From NCBI RefSeq assembly GCF_002104995.1, contig NW_024468303.1:1-52228 (forward strand): a DNA stretch of 52,228 nt, written 5' to 3'. Position 1 is the first letter of the stretch. The number at the start of each line of letters is the position of its first letter. Below are positions 1,642-30,415 of this stretch, piece by piece. Source of the DNA: Linderina pennispora (Eukaryota; Kickxellomycota; Kickxellomycetes; Kickxellales; Kickxellaceae). The translations under genes were made by a program, and so were the position numbers. Below the pieces are notes generated by a model that did no database searches, was not told the origin of the DNA, and was given only the letters and a program-made list of their open reading frames with translations.

Positions 1642-1713
1642 TCCGCAATGGTCCAGTGGCTAGGATCCGACGCTCTCACCGTCGTGGCCGGGGTTCGATT
1701 CCCCGTTGCGGAA
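1642..1713 (+). tRNA. tRNA-Glu (anticodon CTC)
   Basis: A 72-nt tRNA gene with no intron and no encoded CCA. The acceptor stem TCCGCAA pairs with TTGCGGA, and A1713 is the discriminator. The anticodon stem CGACG/CGTCG encloses a loop with anticodon CTC, and the T arm contains GGTTCGATTCC (B box). The A box is around TGGTCCAGTGG. A T5 run at 1720-1724 serves as the RNA polymerase III terminator. The gene body is identical to the tRNA at 20268-20339, and about 28 bp of 5' flank is also shared. Confidence 0.97.
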
Positions 1714-3107
1714 CTTCTCTTTTTACAAAGCTGTTGAATCCGGTGGCAGTTCACATTTGCCTCTTATTAAAGCGCTGCAAGTGCTTATTTAGCGAGATTG
1801 TCTGTATATTGCTCTAAGGGAACCTGGTGGTTTTTATAGTTGGCATTATTAACAAATCAGCCAATCTGGTGTTTGTAACTTCTTATTACTGCCTGTGGAG
1901 TGCTCACTTAATCAATGTGAACTTGAATGACTCTCAGTTTCAAGTTAACCCATTCTAAACACTACAGCAATATGCTACTGGCCATTTTTTGTGCATTAAA
2001 TGTTGAGAGCAAATTATTGTTGATATATTCCAAAGATGCAGTAGGTTGTACTATGTAGTATGATTCCTGCCACTAGGGGGTACTAAGAACTATTTATCAA
2101 TGCACTGAGTGTAAATAAAGAATTCTAGGGTTTACCACAAGCATAGTTGGTACTGATACTCTATAGAGGTCATTTGGAGTTAGTTATCTGCACAACAACT
2201 ATTTATGCATGTTAAAACTATTGGCAATTTCAGTGAAATAAAAATTTCACCCAAACTGCCATCAGCATCTTGGAAAAGTTTCAGTAAACATAATTTCCTT
2301 GTGGTTGCTTAGCCACACCTATTGAGATATTGACTTTTGTTACCTAATGATAATTAACCCTAAATATGCAAAGGTTTTTCTTTCTGGTTGAAATTATGTT
2401 CACTGAAACTTTTCCAAGATGCCAATAGCAGTTTGGGTAAAATAGCAAAAAATAATATTTGTATTTTAGAAATCAATTATACATATAAAAACATTCTGGA
2501 CATAATAATTATAAATATCTATTCCAAAAATATCTAATAGCAAAAAATGATTCTGAAAATGACTATTCAAATATCTATCTAACTAAATTGCGAATATCTA
2601 AAATTTACAAGTCTAGGAATGACCCCCTATATTCTAAATATCTTTTACCTAGTTTAGTGATTGTGAATAACCTCCAGTAATTTGTTGTTAGGACTATCTA
2701 TGGCTTCAGCTAGTGATGCTGAGCAGGGCATCTACTTTATAATGCAACTGGCTGTAATTGCCCTATACTTTTGCGGCATTCACTATCAACAGTATTCTAT
2801 TGTACTAGCTGCAGCGTAGTGCAACTGTAATATCTTATGCTGGTTCGGTTAAGCATTTAGTGTGGTAGAGTCAGGAGAAGGACCCCGCTGGCTTGCAATT
2901 TGTGCCTGTAGATTGGCTGCGCACATTTCTGCCGAATCGCCTGATCGATTAAGACCGCATTAAATCTAAGGTTGACCTCACCACTGATCTGGATTCGCTT
3001 TTTTCGCTAGCAGTTTCGCTGGCTGGTCTCTTTATCTCCATCACCTCCTGTCCTTTCGAATTCACTGTCGCAGCTGCAGCTGTTTGAATAAACAATTTCC
3101 TTGCATA
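1714..3107. other. AT-rich intergenic DNA between tRNA-Glu and SerRS
   Basis: No gene is visible. The stretch contains the MITE-like inverted repeat described at 2244-2443. The last 200 bp become less AT-rich and form the likely promoter and 5' leader of the seryl-tRNA synthetase gene. Confidence 0.6.
2244..2443. mobile_element. MITE-like element with ~54-bp terminal inverted repeats
   Basis: Arm 2245-2297 and the reverse complement of 2390-2443 agree over about 54 bases with a handful of mismatches. Both arms end outward in a shared ACCCAAACTGC core and contain GCATCTTGGAAAAG. The 90-bp centre is AT-rich and non-coding. Total size is about 200 bp, typical of a non-autonomous DNA transposon (MITE). 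I could not fix a target-site duplication, so the superfamily is unassigned. The arms could fold into a long hairpin if transcribed. Confidence 0.7.
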
Positions 3108-4682
3108 ATGACACTGTGCCGGCTGCAGACGCTGCTTCGTTTACCTGTCCACCGACGCCAACCACTCGCGGTCAAGCTGCTGAAGCGGACACTGATCCAA
3201 CCGTCGTTTAATTACAAATATATCCGGGACAATGCAGACGAGCTGCTGGAGAATGCCAAGCAGCGCAACGTACATGACGCACAGCCTCACCGAGTAGGCA
3301 TTCTGTATGACGAGTTTCGGGATATAATGTCGCAGATCAACGAGCGCCGCAGCGAACTCAATGTCCTATCCAAACAGCTGGCACAGCAAGCCAAGTACAA
3401 GGGGCTGCAGGTCAACGCTGAGGAGCACAGGGCGATGATGAGCGATCTGCGGAGTCAGGCTAAATCGTGCAAAGCTCTAGTCCAGGAGCTGGAGCGCAAA
3501 GTCAGTAGCGTCGAGGCACAGTTGATGCATGAAGCTGCAAAAATCCCAAACCTGACACATCCGGACACACCAGTGGGTGGCGAATCGAATGCGCGAACAG
3601 TCAGAATCGAAGGTTTGCTACACACGGTTGACCGGATACCTAACAACCCAAGCGATCTGTCACATCTGTCCAGTGTCGAGTTCCGCGATCACTACGATTT
3701 GGTACGCGACCTTGATATTGTCGACATGCAGGCTGGAGCGCAGGTAGCTGGCAGCAGATTCCACTACTGGAAGGGAGCTGGGGCGCTGCTTGAGCTAGCA
3801 CTGGTGCAGTATGCAATGACTAGAGCGAGCGCAGCAGGATTCATTCCGCATATCACTCCTGATGTCGCACGCAGCAGCATTGTTGACGCATGCGGGTTCC
3901 GGCCGCGCTCTAGTGCCGAGGAGCTGGAGCTGGACAATGCGCTCAGTGGCGATCTCAAGGCTAAGGCTAACAGCCAGCCATTGGGCGAGGCTAGCCAGAT
4001 CTACCGGGCCATCCCGGTTGCTGAGGAATCGCGCAACGACGATAATAATGGCTCCGACCCACTGTGTCTGGTTGCTACGGCAGAGATTCCGCTGGTGGCA
4101 ATGAAGCAGAAACAGATCCTTGATGGGGCAACACTTCCATACGCAGTGGCCGGACTCAGCCATTGCTTCCGTGCCGAGGCCGGTGCGCGCGGACGCGACA
4201 CCCGCGGAATCTACCGGCTGCACCAGTTCACAAAGGTCGAGCTGGTATCGCTCGCGTTGCCAGAGCAGAGCCAGACCGAACTGGAGCGCCTGGTGGGCTT
4301 CCAGACAGCACTGTACCGAGATCTGGGACTGACGTTCCGCATCTTGCAGATGCCTACGCATGAGCTGGGCGCCAGTGCATTCCAAAAGTTTGACATTGAG
4401 GCGTGGATGCCTGGACGCAAGGCGTGGGGGGAAATCTCGAGCGCATCGAACTGCACCGATTACCAAGCGAGACGGCTCGGCATTCGTGCTCGTGTGGCTG
4501 GCGGGGATGGTGGGCCCCCGGTGTTTGTCCATACGCTGAACGCGACGGCGATTGCTGTACCGCGTTTGGCTGTGGCACTGCTCGAGTCGTTCCAGCGTCC
4601 GGGAGGCGAAGTGGTTGTGCCGCAGGTGCTCCGGCCGTGGATGATGGGCATGGATGTGCTCAGGCGGCCGGCTAGCAGCTGA
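3108..4682 (+). CDS. DIA4: Seryl-tRNA synthetase, mitochondrial type
   Basis: A class II aminoacyl-tRNA synthetase that charges tRNA-Ser with serine. The 524-residue protein starts at the first ATG of the frame (3108); the frame also extends upstream to a TTG that is not a plausible eukaryotic start. Residues 1-32 are rich in Arg and Leu and lack acidic residues, as expected for a mitochondrial presequence. An N-terminal long coiled-coil arm (about 45-145) follows, then the catalytic core. Motif 2 starts with FRAE at 354-357 and continues GARGRDTRGIYRLHQF. TAEIPL precedes it, and the C-terminal motif 3 contains an N-A-T-A-I-A-V-P-R stretch. A charged, low-complexity insert (EESRNDDNNGS) lies just before TAEIPL. 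There is no intron. Mitochondrial targeting is inferred from the N-terminus only. Confidence 0.93.
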   Translation: MTLCRLQTLLRLPVHRRQPLAVKLLKRTLIQPSFNYKYIRDNADELLENAKQRNVHDAQPHRVGILYDEFRDIMSQINERRSELNVLSKQLAQQAKYKGLQVNAEEHRAMMSDLRSQAKSCKALVQELERKVSSVEAQLMHEAAKIPNLTHPDTPVGGESNARTVRIEGLLHTVDRIPNNPSDLSHLSSVEFRDHYDLVRDLDIVDMQAGAQVAGSRFHYWKGAGALLELALVQYAMTRASAAGFIPHITPDVARSSIVDACGFRPRSSAEELELDNALSGDLKAKANSQPLGEASQIYRAIPVAEESRNDDNNGSDPLCLVATAEIPLVAMKQKQILDGATLPYAVAGLSHCFRAEAGARGRDTRGIYRLHQFTKVELVSLALPEQSQTELERLVGFQTALYRDLGLTFRILQMPTHELGASAFQKFDIEAWMPGRKAWGEISSASNCTDYQARRLGIRARVAGGDGGPPVFVHTLNATAIAVPRLAVALLESFQRPGGEVVVPQVLRPWMMGMDVLRRPASS

Positions 4683-20267: not shown

Positions 20268-20339
20268 TCCGCAATGGTCCAGTGGCTAGGATCCGACGCT
20301 CTCACCGTCGTGGCCGGGGTTCGATTCCCCGTTGCGGAA
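20268..20339 (+). tRNA. tRNA-Glu (anticodon CTC), second copy
   Basis: Identical in sequence to 1642-1713: 72 nt, anticodon CTC, intact A and B boxes, no intron. A T5 terminator starts directly at 20340-20344. The upstream 28 bp resemble those of the first copy (GATGATTATCTCG shared). The tip of the 0.7-kb repeat ends at about 20220, within the zone just upstream of RNA polymerase III genes that tRNA-targeting retroelements favour. Confidence 0.97.
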
Positions 20340-23572: not shown

Positions 23573-23754
23573 GAATGCAGGCTAGGGGCAGGCAGGACTA
23601 CCGCTGCTAGCCATGTGGGCCAGTGTTTGGTTTGCACGTGATCGGGCGGACGTAATCAGGGGCATGGGAGCGTGGTCGCTGCTTCCTGTCTCTCACCTCT
23701 TTCTTCTTTTAAGCTATACTTATCTTGTTCAAGCCTTCTCTATCGATTACACCT

Positions 23755-25269
23755 ATGAAACTTTATTCTTCCGGCCTTTTGGCGCTGGTGGCAGCCATGG
23801 CCTCGCTTGCCGAGGCATCACCAGCTCAGCATGTCTTTCAGCCGCACCTGGGCGGTCTGACCAGCCACGTGCCCAGCCGCCTGATGGCTTCGGCCCGCGA
23901 GCCGACTGCCAGCCTCCTGAGCGACGCCAAGTGGTCCAAGGTCGAGACCATGGCAGCCCTGCCTAACTACCAGCTGCGCATCAAGCAGCCCCATCTGTGT
24001 GCAGCCAACACAACGCAGTACAGCGGCTATCTCGACACCGACGACGACAAGCACTTTTTCTTCTGGTTCTTTGAGGCGCGCAATGCACCGCGTGACGACG
24101 CACCAGTGATTCTGTGGATGAACGGCGGTCCTGGCTGCAGCTCGTTCACTGGACTTCTAATGGAGCTCGGCCCGTGCCGCGTGGACAAGGGCGGCAAGTC
24201 GGCATCCGACCATGTGTATGGATGGAACGACAAGGCCCACGTGATTTTCATCGACCAGCCGCTCAATGTCGGGTACTCGTACGGCAAGGACGTCTTCAAC
24301 TCGATTGCCGCTGGCAAGGACGTGTACAACTTCTTGCAGCTGTTTTACCACTCGTTCCCCGAGTACGCCAGCAGCGAGCTGCATGTGTTTGGCGAGTCAT
24401 ATGGTGGCCATTATGTGCCAGCGACTGCCAAGGCTATCCATGAGGCCAATCTGGAGTTCACCTCGAAGCAGGCGCTCGGTGCACTGAGTGTTGCCGAGAA
24501 GGAGAAGCGTGTCCTGCCGCTGACATCTATTGGTGTCGGCAATGGCCTGACGGACCCGCTGACGCAGTACCGGTACTACGGAAAGATGGCCTGCAACTCG
24601 ACATACCCGCCTGTTCTCCGGCAGGACCAGTGTGAATCTATGGACAGCAAATACCCGACATGCGCACGGCTCATCGAGGCTTGCTACAAGTGGCAGAACT
24701 CGTTGGCGTGTTACCCGGCCGAAATGTACTGCAACAGTATGATGGTCGCGTACCAGCAGTCAGGCGCCAACCCCTACGACGTGCGGATTCCGTGCGAGGG
24801 CGGCAACCTCTGCTATCCTATCATGTCCGACATTGACGCGTTCCTGAACGACCCGGCGGTGCAGCAGGAGCTGGGGTCTGATGTCTCCAAGTTCGAGTCG
24901 TGCAGCCAAAAGGTTTACAGCGGGTTCATTCTCAACGGCGACTGGATGAAGCCGTACCACCGCGAGGTCCCACCGCTGCTGGAGGCTGGAATCCGTGTTT
25001 TGATATATGCTGGTGATGCAGACTGGATATGCAACTGGTACGGCAACAAGGCGTGGTCCGAGGCGCTGGAGTGGTCCGGCAAGAGCGGGTTCCAGGGTGA
25101 GAAGGACAATGATTGGGTCGTGGACGGCAAGGCTGCTGGCGAAGCACGCACACACAAAAACTTTTCGTTCCTGCGTGTCTTTGGTGCCGGGCACATGGTG
25201 CCCTACGACCAGCCCGAGAACTCGCTGGACATGATTAACCGGTGGATCGCGAACAAGCCCTTCTACTAG
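23755..25269 (+). CDS. PRC1: Serine carboxypeptidase, CPY type (S10)
   Basis: A vacuolar or secreted serine carboxypeptidase that removes C-terminal residues. It has 504 residues from ATG 23755, with a signal peptide (KLYSSGLLALVAAMASLAEA). The catalytic triad is visible: Ser215 in FGESYGGHY, Asp423 in GDADWICNWYGNKAW and His480 in GAGHMVPYDQP. NGGPGCSSFTGL forms the oxyanion/substrate region. Several Cys residues are positioned as in CPY, and NGTY/NFS-like N-glycosylation sites occur. A propeptide of about 80-90 residues precedes the mature domain. There is no intron. It converges on the Fanzor gene, with 262 bp between stop codons. Confidence 0.95.
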   Translation: MKLYSSGLLALVAAMASLAEASPAQHVFQPHLGGLTSHVPSRLMASAREPTASLLSDAKWSKVETMAALPNYQLRIKQPHLCAANTTQYSGYLDTDDDKHFFFWFFEARNAPRDDAPVILWMNGGPGCSSFTGLLMELGPCRVDKGGKSASDHVYGWNDKAHVIFIDQPLNVGYSYGKDVFNSIAAGKDVYNFLQLFYHSFPEYASSELHVFGESYGGHYVPATAKAIHEANLEFTSKQALGALSVAEKEKRVLPLTSIGVGNGLTDPLTQYRYYGKMACNSTYPPVLRQDQCESMDSKYPTCARLIEACYKWQNSLACYPAEMYCNSMMVAYQQSGANPYDVRIPCEGGNLCYPIMSDIDAFLNDPAVQQELGSDVSKFESCSQKVYSGFILNGDWMKPYHREVPPLLEAGIRVLIYAGDADWICNWYGNKAWSEALEWSGKSGFQGEKDNDWVVDGKAAGEARTHKNFSFLRVFGAGHMVPYDQPENSLDMINRWIANKPFY

Positions 25270-25459
25270 CAATTTTTGCAGCTCCAAACGACATTCGCGG
25301 GCTTGTTTGCTAACCCATGGCACTAGCCAAAGTGCAACTGTCCCCGTGAGCAACTGCAATCGCTTATCTGGCAGCTGAGCGGTGAGCGTGACAAATACAT
25401 AGTTCCATACTAGAAATACTCTGCTCGCGATGCGAGCTCGGCTGCTAGTCAGCATGGGT

Positions 25460-25508
25460 TGACACGTCGATAAGGGCATCACGGCGAACCGGTCATTTGA
25501 ACGTGTCA
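25460..25508 (-). ncRNA. Stem-loop just 3' of the Fanzor ORF, candidate guide-RNA region
   Basis: TGACACGT at 25460-25467 pairs perfectly with ACGTGTCA at 25501-25508. The 33-nt loop contains a smaller CGGCGAACCGG-type element. The structure begins 24 bp beyond the Fanzor stop codon on the Fanzor sense strand. In Fanzor and TnpB systems the guide-bearing fRNA/omegaRNA is usually encoded at the 3' end of the ORF and just beyond. The hairpin could equally be a 3'-UTR element of either convergent gene. Confidence 0.35.
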
Positions 25509-25531
25509 GATGGTTGTTGGTGCAATGTCGA

Positions 25532-28144
25532 TCATGGACATCTCCCATCTTGATGGCCTGCTCTGCGTAGGCGCTTCAGCGCTGGCTCGCTGCTGCTGGC
25601 AACAGAATCGCCTGCTGCTGCACGCCTCTTGCGCGACCTCTTTGTTGCAGGGGTGGTGCCAGAAGTATCGGCAGCAATGGCCGTAAAGCGACGGAACCGT
25701 TCAGGAATACTGCCTGAATCACAGAGTGACTGGAAAATGAGTCTGAAGTTTAGAACTGCTGCGAGATCGCGGTTCAAGAGCCGAGACGAATAGGCTCGCC
25801 TGTATTGTGCCATGGCCCGCTTACATGACTCGCTTGTACAGCGGAGAAGGCCATGGCACTTCACAGTTGGGTTCTTCGATCTCTGGTAGGGCCGCGGATT
25901 GGGAACATGCCGGAATGTCTGCAGTGACTTATCGCAGCAGAACGGGCACACCGATGATGTCCGGAATTCGTCGATCAGATAGACTTCAAAGCCATGGTGC
26001 TTGAACTTGTCGCGCCATCCCTTGCCACGAATCGGCGCATGGTGCCGGGCCATCGGCGCACTCCAATTGCCCATGATCAGCACTGGATCTGGACCGAACT
26101 TGCTCCGGAGTTTCGCGGCAAGCCTGTGGTCTGCACGGGCCTGGTTCATGAATGAATCAAGGCGCAGCTTGCGGTGAAGCGGGTACACCTTGGGACTGGT
26201 CCCGACACCCGGATGGGCCTTCCAGCGCCTCTGATGCTGCTTGTTTGACTTAGTGGGCTGCTGCTCTAGTAGCCTTCGCGCTGTCATCGTGTTGGCATAA
26301 AATGGTGCTAGGACACACCGCACAGATGCACGGGCAGCAACATAGGCACGGAATTTTGCTGGGCTAAGGGTCCGGCAGCAGTGCTTGGAAAGCTCTGCCT
26401 CTGCTCTGCGGACAGCATCTTCTGGGACTTGATCCTTTGTAGCCTGACGAATCCTGTCATAGTGGCGCAACTTGAGCTCCTTGTTGCGCTGCTGCCGTGT
26501 GTAGCGGTAGAGCATTTTTTCACCCTCCTTCCCATTGCTGCTATTTTCGTGCATCATGTATAGCAAATCGCCCCGACCTGGATCGATGAATACACAGCGG
26601 CCTTTCAGATTCTGCAGCTCTGGCTGTGGGATCTGGTGGATATAGCGACAGTCAGCTATAGTACTGCCTCCCACAGCATCACCTCCTGCAACATCGCCTG
26701 TAGCATCGCCTCCCACAGCATCGCCTGTAGCATCGCCTCCTGTAGCATCGCCTCCCACAGCATCGCCTGTAGCATTGCCTCCCGCAGCATTGCCTCCTGC
26801 AGCACCAGCCTTAGGTACCTTGTCTTGTAACAAAATGCATATCGTTACACCATCTGTTGTCGCCATTCCGTGGAATTTTCTATCACCATGCGCCTTAAAT
26901 GGCTTCGATGTTAGATCTGCGACCCGGCCCCACACATCCCACACAGGTTGTGTGATCCCTTGGACCGGGTCGTGTGCACAGACTGGGGGTGCTGGTGCAT
27001 ATGCATTGTTAAGTGCTGCAACAGTGTCTGCTGCTGCCGCCGATGCACCAGCAAGTGAATCAGCCGCTACTGCTGCAGTTGCTGCAGTGGCCTCTGTTGC
27101 ATCCGATGGCATCTTCGCTGCTTTGCGTGCAGCCTTCTTGGCCAATTTTTCGCTTTTTTCTGCTGCTTTCCTTGCCTCTGTTGCTGCCCTCTTTGCTGCG
27201 TTGATCTTGGTAACCTCCTCACGTGTTTTCGAAACAAACACCTGCTTGATTATTTGCTTGTCTAAGCGCACATGGCCTGGGATCCATGATGTCCGCAGAG
27301 GCAAGCATTGAGGGGGAGACTTGCCAAGCTGCTCATTCTCGATAAGCTGGCATAGGCGAATGTATGCACGCAGATGCTGAAGTGGATTTACCTTGGCATC
27401 ATAGTATCGGCTGTCTTTGGCGAATCTGTACTTGGCACCATAGGCATTAAGGACTGGTGCCAGCTTGTTGTAGATTGCAAGCATCGGTGGGGTGAGCACA
27501 CTGAGATCAGGGTGTCTAGAGGCAACTGCCTGGCGGAGCTTCTGTGTGGGTGTATAGATACACACTTGACATGCATTATTGAACTCAGCCTTGGACACAT
27601 TGCCCATTGTACTGTGCAGTGTGTTTTTGCGGCTGCGAATATCAATCAATTTGGCCAGAATCCGCTGTAGGCAACTGCCATAGTGCAACACAATGTTGTT
27701 CTTGTATGCTGTCATCAGCTCGGTATCCACGTATGTCGCTACCTGATTCATTTCACGTACGCCATGTAGCTCGATATCGCCATTATGTAATAGATAATCA
27801 TAAATATGATATCTAACTACATCACCGAAATCTGCGCTCGACAGTTCTGACCTGTCCTTCCGGTTGACAAAATCCTCGGCAGATATGACAGTCTTCGCCT
27901 TCAGGTTGCGATAAATAAATAAATAAATGGAACGAAACAACCCCTTTTTCACAAATATTGCAGGGTCAAAGGCATCATCGTCAGCTAGTTGATGGAGTAA
28001 TATCCATCGTGCAAGCATGTATGTATGCTCTTTGATGATATTGACGCTGTGTACAAATTGCTCTAGGCGGGGCAACATAGAATCACGGAAGCCAATACCA
28101 CCAAGTGATGTCTTTATGACAGTAGTGCTGCGGGTAATATCCAT
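25532..28144 (-). CDS. Fanzor (TnpB-like RNA-guided DNA endonuclease), intact ORF
   Basis: An 870-residue intronless ORF from ATG 28144. The C-terminal half has the split RuvC nuclease of the Fanzor/TnpB family: Asp521 in CVFIDPGRGDLL (RuvC-I), Glu726 in YLIDEFRTSSVCPFC (RuvC-II) and Asp793 in LLNRDLAAVLNF (RuvC-III). A zinc ribbon lies between the last two (Cys733, Cys736, Cys769, Cys774). MGNWSAPMARHHAP precedes RuvC-II, as in eukaryotic Fanzors. The N-terminal 300 residues would form the recognition lobe. Two low-complexity inserts lengthen it: a Lys/Ala/Glu helix-prone stretch (about 306-385) and a GGDATGD repeat (about 446-493). Basic nuclear-localisation-like clusters KRSRKRR (835-841) and LKRLRRAG close the protein. 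All catalytic residues appear intact. No transposase gene or clear terminal repeats were found beside it, so it may be an isolated or domesticated copy. Confidence 0.93.
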   Translation of the reverse strand: MDITRSTTVIKTSLGGIGFRDSMLPRLEQFVHSVNIIKEHTYMLARWILLHQLADDDAFDPAIFVKKGLFRSIYLFIYRNLKAKTVISAEDFVNRKDRSELSSADFGDVVRYHIYDYLLHNGDIELHGVREMNQVATYVDTELMTAYKNNIVLHYGSCLQRILAKLIDIRSRKNTLHSTMGNVSKAEFNNACQVCIYTPTQKLRQAVASRHPDLSVLTPPMLAIYNKLAPVLNAYGAKYRFAKDSRYYDAKVNPLQHLRAYIRLCQLIENEQLGKSPPQCLPLRTSWIPGHVRLDKQIIKQVFVSKTREEVTKINAAKRAATEARKAAEKSEKLAKKAARKAAKMPSDATEATAATAAVAADSLAGASAAAADTVAALNNAYAPAPPVCAHDPVQGITQPVWDVWGRVADLTSKPFKAHGDRKFHGMATTDGVTICILLQDKVPKAGAAGGNAAGGNATGDAVGGDATGGDATGDAVGGDATGDVAGGDAVGGSTIADCRYIHQIPQPELQNLKGRCVFIDPGRGDLLYMMHENSSNGKEGEKMLYRYTRQQRNKELKLRHYDRIRQATKDQVPEDAVRRAEAELSKHCCRTLSPAKFRAYVAARASVRCVLAPFYANTMTARRLLEQQPTKSNKQHQRRWKAHPGVGTSPKVYPLHRKLRLDSFMNQARADHRLAAKLRSKFGPDPVLIMGNWSAPMARHHAPIRGKGWRDKFKHHGFEVYLIDEFRTSSVCPFCCDKSLQTFRHVPNPRPYQRSKNPTVKCHGLLRCTSESCKRAMAQYRRAYSSRLLNRDLAAVLNFRLIFQSLCDSGSIPERFRRFTAIAADTSGTTPATKRSRKRRAAAGDSVASSSEPALKRLRRAGHQDGRCP
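26667..26808 (-). repeat. Minisatellite inside the Fanzor gene
   Basis: Imperfect GCATCGCCTGTA / GCATCGCCTCCCACA units alternate along about 140 bp. On the coding strand they encode an alternating GGDATGD / AVGGDATGD linker just upstream of RuvC-I. All units are multiples of 3 nt, so length changes keep the frame. It is expected to be variable among strains. Confidence 0.8.
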
Positions 28145-29364
28145 TTGAGAAGTTCAATAGGCAAGTAAGAAGAGAAATGATGCTGTTCAGTTTTGCTGTA
28201 TTGCGTGTGCATAGCATTAAGAACTTTTTATTAAAGATTTTCTGGCTTGCATGGTTCTTGGGGCCCTTAGCACTGATATAGTCTCTTGAATCAGTCTATA
28301 CATACTGGGTCCGTTGTGACCCAAATACTACCGCTTACGCATGTTCATAAGACAAATTAATTTATAAAATAAACCCACAAATATTGCATAACCACCAGAA
28401 GAGCTATATGGTCTTATTCAATAGGTGCTCATAAATAAATATCATAAGAGTGTTGCGCAGCCGGTGATGACCACCATGATGATGGCATGGAAGTTATCAG
28501 GCCGACCGACAATGAGAGCAGCTCTTGCGCTGAACCAATGGAGATATATAGTGGAGACCTGTGACCACTACAATAACAACTTGTCACCCTGGTTTCACCG
28601 ATGAGATCAGATGCCACACAAGATCAAAAGGAGTTTACAGAGCAAGTCACTCAAACCCGTGTTGAAGCTTAAGAGTTTTTTTTTAACCAATTAAATAATT
28701 TCTAGCGGACGGTCGGACACTTTTTGGACTATAAAATCTTATATATAGGTAAAGAAGATGCTCACGGTACCAACAGTGACGTGTTTGGTCTCCCCCTTTT
28801 CACCTTTCCCAAATTGCACCATTTAGAATGATTGATCCTGGCCCAGTGTACCGACAATGTGCGTGGCACGAGGGGATAGTGGCGACATGTTTACTGGATG
28901 ATGATCAGCCTGTTATATAGCGGCGAGTGAGGGATGAGTGCCGGTATATGGCATGCACGATGTAGTCTCACGAGGGTATGCATGTCTCATTTCCTTTCTT
29001 GCAGCAAATGTGCCGGAAAATGATCAGCGCTTTCTCAATCCTAGAAAAGCATCGCTGGCAATCTCTTTGACGGGCTATCACGCTGATGTGCGGTAAATGA
29101 CTCCAAATCCGAGCGAGTTGGGGCTGTGCCATCCAGACCTGGCTGTGAAGGATAAAAGCAGCAGTCTCTGGACCGCTATCGCATTAGCCGATGCCCTTCA
29201 ATATAATCTGCCCGTTGTCTTGTTTATCAATTGGAATCGTATTGTTCCTCCTGTACGTGGTCCCCGCACACCAACCACCGGTCTCGTTCAAGACTCAGCA
29301 CCTTTTTACATTTCTTTGCAGCGTCGGCTATTTCGGACTGCTTTCTTCCCTGCTCACCCTTATA
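28145..29364. other. Intergenic region between Fanzor and PI-PLC genes
   Basis: About 1.2 kb, AT-rich near the Fanzor start and more mixed towards the phospholipase gene. It contains a small GGGTC/GACCC hairpin at 28307-28322 and TATATATA near 28740. I searched by eye for inverted repeats matching the region 3' of Fanzor and found none. The last 100-150 bp, with a pyrimidine-rich tract, should be the promoter of the phospholipase-like gene. No other gene is supported. Confidence 0.5.
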
Positions 29365-30390
29365 ATGAAACTACTCTTCGTCTTACCGCTGATCCTTGTG
29401 TCTTCTGTGTTTTCGCTCAAGTGCCACAGTCAGCAAACGTGTGCGGGGCATGCCGCTCTGTGTGCCAAGCCGTACAACAAGGTGTCCTTTGCCACCACGC
29501 ACAATGCATACTCATATGCACCACCGGCCGGCAGCCCAGCGCTAAACCAAGAGCGCACAATCCAGCAGCAGCTCGACGACGGCATCCGCGCCTTCATGCT
29601 CGACACGCACAAGCCCTTGGAAATCACAGGAGTGTGGAACAAGATCGTGGCGTGGTTCCAAACCACCTTCCACCGCACAAACACCGCCGATGCGCCCGAA
29701 ATCAAAGGCGTGCATCTCTGCCATCAGTCATGCGCGCTTGTGGATAGGGGCACATTGTACGACACACTGAAGGTGTTCAGGCAGTTCCTCAATGAGAATC
29801 CAGGCGAAATTGTGACGTTTATTATCGAGAATTTTGATGCATTCGAGGCAAGCCAGCTCAGCCCCAGCTTCAAGCTCGCCGACCTCGAGCGCTCGGCATT
29901 CGCGCCCACATGGGAGCACTCCACAAGCAACCAAAACTACACGTGGCCGACACTCGGGGAGATGGTCGACAGAGACCAGCGCCTGGTTGTGTTCGTCGAC
30001 AGCCATACTGACACCGCAAAGGTGCCCTATCTGCTTGCTGAATGGGACTACGTGATCGAAACACCATACGCCAACATCCACCCAGTCAGCGAGTTCCCGT
30101 GTACGCAGGACCGGCCACGCGACCATGTCCCACGCGACCTGCTTGTGGCCAACCACTTCACATATAATCGCATCACCATTGGTGATAGCAATATCGATGT
30201 GCCACTGACGGCGAAACAGCTGCAAAAGTACGGGTACAATAGCAAGGAGCAGCTGCAGACTCATCTCGATACATGCACAAAGGTTTGGGGCGCCGAGCGG
30301 GTGCCAAACTTTATTACTCTGGACTACTACGACGTCAGCGGCTCAACGCTGCTTGACACAGTGAACAGGGTTAATGGTGTTAGTTCATAG
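29365..30390 (+). CDS. Secreted PI-PLC X-domain-like phosphodiesterase
   Basis: A fungal PLC-like TIM-barrel phosphodiesterase of the GDPD/PI-PLC_X type. It has 341 residues from ATG 29365, the Met directly before a signal peptide (KLLFVLPLILVSSVFS); the frame continues upstream without gene-like content. Candidate general acid/base histidines are His46 in ATTHNAYS and His120 in LCHQSC. Between them lie QQQLDDGIRAFMLDTH and, later, GEIVTFIIENF. Several Cys may form disulfides. The substrate is not known; family members include bacterial-type PI-specific PLC-like proteins of unclear specificity. It converges on ULA1 with 25 bp between stop codons. Confidence 0.88.
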   Translation: MKLLFVLPLILVSSVFSLKCHSQQTCAGHAALCAKPYNKVSFATTHNAYSYAPPAGSPALNQERTIQQQLDDGIRAFMLDTHKPLEITGVWNKIVAWFQTTFHRTNTADAPEIKGVHLCHQSCALVDRGTLYDTLKVFRQFLNENPGEIVTFIIENFDAFEASQLSPSFKLADLERSAFAPTWEHSTSNQNYTWPTLGEMVDRDQRLVVFVDSHTDTAKVPYLLAEWDYVIETPYANIHPVSEFPCTQDRPRDHVPRDLLVANHFTYNRITIGDSNIDVPLTAKQLQKYGYNSKEQLQTHLDTCTKVWGAERVPNFITLDYYDVSGSTLLDTVNRVNGVSS

Positions 30391-30415
30391 GCTTAATATT
30401 TCAACAAGTATGATG

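Follow-up and report, generated by a model that had tools for sequence, protein, structure and literature searches.

The 52,228-nucleotide stretch of DNA from the soil fungus Linderina pennispora analysed here (contig NW_024468303.1, positions 1 to 52,228; hereafter the window, and C174 in our contig numbering) carries on its minus strand an intact gene for the RNA-guided nuclease Fanzor1, and this gene lies inside a 3.35-kb Helitron of the canonical (Helitron1) type, a class assigned from the ends of the element and its insertion site. We are close to certain of these two points taken together, the identity of the gene and the Helitron nature of its carrier. Since RepHel Helitrons with the same 5′ end occur in this genome, the Fanzor element is most likely a non-autonomous Helitron. 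The overall picture, in which such an element moves and persists by the mechanism proposed below, appears probable, and for a homing or retention role of the nuclease within it we regard the case as evenly balanced. The main features of the element are as follows.

~25410..28758, minus strand: whole Fanzor-bearing non-autonomous Helitron, 3.35 kb (shared ends of 20 copies, 42 flank pairs)
25532..28144, minus strand: intact Fanzor1 open reading frame (ORF), 870 codons (homology, frame, family alignment)
at 28755, minus strand: core 5′ end, TCTTTACC (common start of copies)
28756-28758, minus strand: extra TCT, read as part of a variable 5′ repeat (analogy with the empty site of locus L070)
28675..28755, minus strand: first 81 bp of the element, matching the 5′ end of the L042 RepHel Helitron at 100% identity (sequence comparison)
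25423..25437, minus strand: subterminal 3′ hairpin of Helitron type, GCTCGC-ATC-GCGAGC (copy ends, fold)
25410..25413, minus strand: Helitron 3′ terminus CTAG (CTRR) (copy ends, flank pairs)
25408..25409, minus strand: target TA directly after the element, predicted to be the last two bases of the unoccupied-site motif A^TA (flank pairs; motif inferred)

The Fanzor1 gene and its active site

On sequence evidence the ORF is a real, intact Fanzor1 gene, and its product may be active. The frame is single and open on the minus strand, whereas the same coordinates on the plus strand are full of stops, and it extends nine codons past codon 861, the majority stop of the family (28 copies). In a phmmer search of PDB chains the best match was Parasitella parasitica Fanzor1 (PpFz1; 1.1e-83, in four matched stretches), with further matches to Spizellomyces SpuFz1 (5.9e-36) and Guillardia Fanzor1 (GtFz1; 2.8e-6), and the Fanzor1 homology spans the REC/WED, RuvC and TNB parts. 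Pfam-A gave only a sub-threshold TNB match (E 0.023). Residues D521, E726 and D793, proposed as the RuvC triad in an earlier note on this DNA, align with positions 777, 935 and 1000 of chain 8gkh, which are the SpuFz1 catalytic residues D383, E541 and D606 (residue names from PMC10432273), so that the catalytic positions do coincide with the active site of the family. A zinc ribbon of four cysteines (C733 and C736, C769 and C774) sits between E726 and D793, with C737 and C763 present too, and basic clusters begin at residues 835 and 857. The note had described the single intact frame at 25532-28144, the four-cysteine ribbon and the C-terminal basic clusters, and all of these descriptions were borne out.

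A search with residues 505-815 returned 107 relatives, most of those listed being from Coemansia, with others from Mucorales, while the whole protein as query returned one, probably because low-complexity words dominated. Across 42 aligned relatives D521 and C736 were invariant and E726, C733 and C769 were conserved in at least 90%, with D793 and C774 below 90%. The window protein contains an Ala/Lys-rich insert (~303-401) and a length-variable Gly/Ala/Asp repeat (~442-497). The repeat lies in frame between WED/REC and RuvC (element positions 1891-2110; window ~26646-26865, minus strand) and differs among copies, with gaps in 12% of alignment cells there and split matches in searches.

Copies, ends and insertion site

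At least 77 stretches of the 26.2-Mb L. pennispora genome match the Fanzor protein, and at least nine cover residues 1-870; the protein search scored 52 of 585 candidates and the flank (empty-site) search 40 of 94, and the numbers of copies and of empty sites are therefore minimum values. Twenty matching stretches were retrieved with their flanks and compared against a 9.5-kb window query. All 20 copies end at window 25408 or at most 15 bp beyond, 15 start exactly at 28755 and four within 4 bp of it, and one (L013) is without the 5′ part in the matched piece. Their flanks are mostly unrelated, with a RepHel flank common to L009 and L014. Reading frames of at least 857 codons were found in eight of 22 aligned elements, and the other 14 stop early.

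The ends themselves are abundant in the genome: a 3′-end pattern gave 116 matches and a 5′-end pattern (29 bp, one mismatch allowed) gave 99, against none for either reversed control. Pairing the 99 5′ ends with 100 listed of the 116 3′ ends yielded at least 45 elements, 23 of them 1.36-2.52 kb long, 19 of 3.03-3.44 kb and three over 5 kb. Five short elements that were retrieved proved to be internal deletions of the Fanzor element, and the codons for D521 and E726 are missing from these five as well as from the L042 copy.

Terminal and flanking bases were compared in 42 flank pairs (the window copy, 16 retrieved loci, the five short elements and 20 of 30 further end-pairs; L013, L014, L015 and L025, with shifted or missing 5′ ends, and L042 and L043 lie outside this set). 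The 5′ dinucleotide is TC in 39 of the 42 (TT, CC or AC in the others) and the 3′ end is CTAG or CTGG in all 42, counts that are favoured by the selection of at least 20 of these copies on their end patterns. The 6-bp 3′ hairpin ends 9 nt before CTAG or CTGG; the usual distance of a Helitron hairpin from the 3′ end is 10-12 nt. Directly after the element, the first base is T in 42/42 and the second A in 41/42, against a TA share of 3.6% among the window's dinucleotides, and the raw base preceding the element is A in 32/42. Before trimming of 5′ repeats, the sites comprise 31 ATA, 5 GTA (two beside a RepHel end), 4 TTA, 1 ATT and 1 CTA.

For five other copies (L017, L020, L023, L051 and L070), empty sites that span the junction were identified, and these fit insertion at A^TA with no regular target duplication. 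Twenty of the 42 copies entered the flank search, and L009, L019 and L060 had been taken out of the 42 before one empty-site search. Small differences occur near the empty sites of L051 (3 bp), L017 (8 bp), L020 (11 bp) and L023 (2 or 4 bp, according to the one of four repeat copies used for comparison), and in L070 an extra TCTTTATCT belongs to the insert. Variable TCTTTA-type runs are seen at the 5′ ends of L010, L016, L048, L058, L068 and L070, and for L070 the empty site places them inside the insert; the 5′ terminus of the element may therefore grow or slip in replication.

Other transposon classes fit these data poorly. The element has neither terminal nor asymmetric inverted repeats (no match of 6 or more), which led us to reject a transposon with terminal inverted repeats, and it has no 5′ hairpin (5′ fold z +0.78); a Helitron2, for which the hairpin and asymmetric terminal inverted repeats were looked for and not found, was rejected as well. 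A TA duplication of mariner type was also set aside: TA follows the element in 41 of the 42 copies, but the 5′ side varies and the empty sites have no regular duplication.

RepHel Helitrons as partners

The same genome contains 13 PF14214 matches (RepHel genes), and locus L043 encodes both Helitron_like_N (2e-49) and PIF1 (2e-78) parts. At five of six RepHel loci the Helitron_like_N start is preceded, 1.7-1.8 kb upstream, by the 5′-end pattern; no match is listed at the sixth, on contig C2. The RepHel element at L042 has a hairpin-CTAG end of its own, different in sequence from that of the Fanzor element. The earlier remark that no transposase or terminal repeats are visible holds for the window locus, but the element does have exact ends, and RepHel Helitrons sharing its 5′ end lie elsewhere in the genome. 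Mobilisation of the Fanzor element in trans by RepHel is very probable.

At six loci (L009, L014 and L042-L045) a RepHel CTAG runs directly into another 5′ end, which belongs to the Fanzor element in five and to a different short element in L045; a flank of L060 provides a seventh case of a RepHel 3′ end followed by a 5′ end. Alternatively, then, the Fanzor element and the RepHel Helitron could be one composite element, of which the solo Fanzor copies are fragments using an internal 5′ end. All seven RepHel 3′ ends examined do run directly into a TCTTTACC-type 5′ end, which lacks a few bases in L014, L042 and L043, but the count is biased, as three of the seven loci (L009, L014 and L060) came to light through the Fanzor gene or the 5′ end, and at L045 the RepHel Helitron is followed by the different element. 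The divergences of the two parts agree between L014 and L044/L013 (5 substitutions in 421 bp of RepHel sequence vs 1.5% in Fanzor) and disagree, with RepHel the less diverged part, between L009 and L014 (4 substitutions in 421 bp vs 5.5%) and between L009 and L043 (2 substitutions in 423 vs 2.9%). Given this mixture, a composite as the sole mobile form was rejected, and we consider the composite explanation in general doubtful. The junctions would mostly reflect independent joining, for example by a RepHel circle integrating via the shared 81 bp, with joint movement of the two parts possible in the L014-L044/L013 case.

Three further observations concern the RepHel loci. L042 has an additional, inverted match to ~500 bp of its RepHel part (composite 2643-3142), and a similar inverted piece is present in L009, so recurrent rearrangement of the Helitron is possible at these two loci. 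L035 (C68:196743-200150) has a weaker Helitron_like_N match (5.8e-24) in an uninterrupted frame of 1989 amino acids and is possibly a different, intact Helitron lineage. The ~0.65-kb element that follows RepHel in L045 (C2:647500-651400) shares the 5′ end, differs in its body and has a related 3′ end; it is probably a further non-autonomous member without Fanzor.

Selection on the coding sequence

Selection was assessed across 28 element sequences (the window, the 20 retrieved copies, L043, L042 and the five short elements), with codons 427-500 and above 810 left out of the core coding count. Nonsynonymous plus stop changes stood to synonymous changes at 115:113 among variants shared between copies and at 218:96 among singletons (p=1.1e-5 in Fisher's test, which assumes independent variants, whereas the copies are related by descent). 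The corresponding ratios are 1.02 for shared variants, falling to 0.77 for those at three or more copies, and 2.27 for singletons, with a neutral expectation of 2.52 when transitions are weighted fourfold. The result persists in the 21 full-length copies alone (88:96 vs 190:88), and the depletion remains when CpG sites are removed and when variants at three or more copies are taken. With the frame shifted by one or two, shared variants gave 3.4-3.7 and singletons 2.1-2.7, so the shared class is not depleted there, and pseudo-frames in the 5′ untranslated region (5′UTR) showed no difference between shared variants and singletons. Furthermore, the D/E/D triad is present in 20 of the 22 copies keeping all three catalytic codon positions, the exceptions being L020 (N521) and L022 (G521).

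Since shared variants are depleted of amino-acid changes and singletons are near neutral, the Fanzor protein appears to be preserved in the lineages that transmit the element, while individual insertions decay. This mutation pattern suggests that the enzyme is kept because it matters to the element, and not because it was tamed by the fungus; indirectly, it also strengthens the earlier proposal that the nuclease may be active.

Helitrons are known to carry genes, and Fanzor could be such a passenger, hitch-hiking on an element whose spread depends on RepHel alone and to which it adds nothing. Copies from which the RuvC core has been deleted are common, as expected under this explanation. A pure passenger would, however, look neutral in the shared and singleton classes alike, which is contradicted by the ratio of 1.02 among shared variants beside near-neutral singletons. 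We therefore judge a passenger role unlikely.

A candidate guide-RNA scaffold and the proposed mechanism

The 3′ end of the element adds three features.

25414..25505, minus strand: 3′ stretch under constraint and candidate scaffold of a guide RNA (omegaRNA), overlapping the Helitron 3′ end (variant counts, folds)
within 25412-25422, minus strand: short stem AGA/TCT (fold)
25388..25407, minus strand: predicted guide of the window copy, 20 nt after the TA (inferred by position)

In the last 92 nt before CTAG, shared and singleton variants number 6:24, as against 98:105 in the 5′UTR (p=0.005) and 118:101 at third codon positions (p=0.0007). This stretch could be a guide-RNA scaffold that doubles as the Helitron 3′ end. 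A search of Rfam gave a single match, isrG, which scored 23 bits (gathering score 100) and was taken as chance.

We propose that RepHel proteins recognise the shared 5′ end together with a hairpin-CTAG 3′ end and would thereby move the Fanzor element in trans as single-stranded DNA. Fanzor would bind an RNA made up of the last ~90 nt of the element and ~15-20 nt of the right flank, the latter serving as the guide, and would recognise the motif re-formed at an unoccupied site, predicted to be ATA or RTA. A cut ~16-21 nt into the unoccupied site would then lead to repair of the chromosome without the element from the chromosome with it. The occupied site would be spared, its right junction reading G-TA (CTAG followed by TA), which should be poorly recognised, and its left junction A-TC. 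An IS607 TnpB is reported to take the fixed flanking base into its RNA scaffold (PMC10711439), and by analogy we predict that the TA after CTAG is part of the motif and that the guide starts at the third flanking base. The nuclease would thus be a eukaryotic counterpart of TnpB acting with the single-strand transposase TnpA.

A different use of the enzyme is conceivable, in which Fanzor acts in transposition itself, opening or trimming donor or target for RepHel, and does not home into the empty allele. Its physical coupling with RepHel at the head-to-tail junctions is in keeping with such a role, and an insertion motif of A^TA would serve both proteins. However, the deletion derivatives moved without the catalytic core, so any such help must come in trans or be dispensable, and characterised Fanzors are RNA-guided nucleases (PMC10432273). 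A role in transposition accordingly seems improbable.

The counterpart allele on contig C24

The window element is missing from a counterpart on contig C24, which carries its flanks at 97.6 and 98.7% identity with no element between. Read along the element, the window has the order GTCAC, 17 bp, element, 17 bp, GTCAC, and C24 has a single GTCAC.

25388..25392, minus strand: GTCAC, right copy of the 5-bp repeat bounding the segment missing from C24 (allele comparison)
28776..28780, minus strand: GTCAC, left copy of the same 5-bp repeat (allele comparison)

Relative to the inferred empty site, C24 is short of 39 bp, namely 17 bp left and 17 bp right of the insertion point and one GTCAC; elsewhere, an alignment of the two contigs over 2105 columns shows 40 substitutions and 2 gap runs. 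The 34-bp segment is not a dispersed repeat, its left half having one exact match and three with 2 mismatches and its right half one match. Read most simply, the C24 allele arose when an empty allele underwent a microhomology deletion, or when the element was lost together with flanks. Alternatively, the difference may be a 34-bp insertion with a 5-bp duplication that predates the element.

The right breakpoint of C24 falls 17-22 nt past the insertion point, and SpuFz1 cuts after bases 16-17 and 20-21 (PMC10432273). This closeness to a predicted cut of SpuFz1 type (two further if TA belongs to the motif) raises the idea that C24 bears the scar of a Fanzor cut. In a joint reading, the final ~50-90 nt would be at once Helitron terminus and guide scaffold, A^TA would also be the nuclease motif, giving one address system for both activities, and C24 would record one cut. 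We put this joint reading forward as speculative.

The earlier note had placed the gene in a housekeeping region and allowed that it might be domesticated. The setting is not supported as a sign of domestication, with at least 77 matching stretches in the fungus's own genome and a 98-99% identical counterpart from which this mobile element is missing. A domesticated host gene, present once and retained by the fungus among conserved neighbours, might be suggested by the intact ORF beside a conserved carboxypeptidase and by the purifying selection on the family. This explanation is extremely improbable and was rejected, given dozens of copies that share their ends but not their flanks, the empty allele on C24, and private changes in the window copy (0.0042 per site) like those of other copies.

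The window contig matches the 729-kb contig C24 over stretches 23700-25392 and 28776-30400, which are 98-99% identical to adjacent parts of it, so C174 is possibly a second haplotype retained in the assembly. Flanks of copies on larger contigs are likewise matched by contigs C106, C206 and C218.

Several observations weigh against the overall picture. With regard to cutting, no loss was seen at the predicted cut distance in the other five of five empty sites (L017, L020, L023, L051 and L070), and C24 is one case. The GTA, TTA and CTA sites weaken a strict ATA rule. Constraint on the 3′ end is by itself no proof of a guide RNA, because Helitron transposition needs this end anyway; the 3′ stretch shows no covariation for a guide-RNA fold, having too little variation, and the fold of a longer 3′ stretch is unremarkable (z -1.0). 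With regard to mobility, the 3′ ends of the Fanzor and RepHel elements are alike in form only, an intact RepHel frame of the family sharing the Fanzor element's end is not established, and 55 of the 100 listed 3′ ends have no 5′ partner. Copies that have lost the catalytic core have spread as well (23 of the 45 end-pairs are 1.36-2.52 kb long, and L047 and L050 have the same deletion breakpoints at different loci), which means that transposition does not always require Fanzor in cis. Finally, for selection, beyond the relatedness of copies noted above, the C-terminal tail (codons above 810) is unconstrained (24:14 shared, 26:12 singletons), and the ratio in the shifted frames goes the opposite way (p 0.015 to 0.23), as would be expected if shared changes lie at true third positions.

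Comparison with known systems

Fanzor1 genes on Helitrons have a precedent in Chlamydomonas reinhardtii, where CRe-1, CRe-2 and CRe-3 are non-autonomous Helitron2 elements bearing Fanzor1, and Fanzor1 also occurs in other transposons of Mucorales (Bao and Jurka 2013, PMC3627910). Like the Linderina element, the algal ones are Fanzor1-only, have ends resembling those of resident Helitrons and left internal deletion copies. They differ in their Helitron2 nature, 5′ hairpin, asymmetric terminal inverted repeats and insertion after TTTT, and in Fanzor genes of five or ten exons and 5′-truncated copies with variable target site duplications. The Linderina element instead has Helitron1-type ends, insertion mostly at A^TA without target site duplication, a single open frame, a fungal host and head-to-tail RepHel junctions. 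No fungal Helitron1 bearing Fanzor was found in the literature searched, a scope that leaves aside subscription papers and most preprints; Fanzor1 on an algal Helitron2 has been known since 2013, and within that literature a fungal version of Helitron1 type is new here.

SPu-1, which encodes SpuFz1 in Spizellomyces punctatus, is likewise a fungal Fanzor1 element with a single ORF, many copies and Fanzor-less 'ghost' copies, the same catalytic triad and a conserved stretch from the stop codon to the right end (PMC10432273). It has 30-nt inverted repeats, within which no transposase was reported, whereas the Linderina element has Helitron ends and resident RepHel. PpFz1 (PMC11423790; PDB 9cf0-9cf3), the closest solved relative by sequence, carries an FRI insertion in RuvC that the Linderina protein does not have (26 vs 101 residues in the alignment gap), the latter having the Ala/Lys-rich insert and the Gly/Ala/Asp repeat instead. 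The target-adjacent motif of PpFz1 is reported as 5′-ATN (PMC11423790), which would match the A^TA site of the Linderina element.

As in IS200/IS605 elements with TnpA and TnpB, a single-strand HUH transposase would here be paired with an RNA-guided nuclease. The bacterial system is one compact element, whereas in Linderina transposase and nuclease lie on separate elements that share one end. A Helitron parallel to TnpA/TnpB was suggested in PMC10432273, where the biological role of transposon-borne RNA-guided nucleases in eukaryotes is stated as unknown. The L. pennispora genome combines an element that encodes the nuclease with RepHel Helitrons sharing its 5′ end, with deletion derivatives and with empty alleles. 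Its mutational record suggests that the nuclease is kept in spreading lineages, which makes a homing or retention role directly testable.

Neighbouring genes

The element lies ~140 bp downstream of the stop codon of a carboxypeptidase gene that lies outside it.

23725..25269, plus strand: serine carboxypeptidase (Peptidase_S10, CPY/PRC1-like; Pfam 5.7e-111; 91% identical to Linderina macrospora)

Of the two flanking genes named in the earlier note, the PRC1-like carboxypeptidase was thus recovered and the PI-PLC was not: none was found among 26 window ORFs scanned with Pfam (the window has 54 ORFs of at least 150 amino acids, called without intron modelling). Two tRNA-Glu (CTC) genes also lie on the 52-kb contig, at window positions 1642-1714 and 20268-20339.

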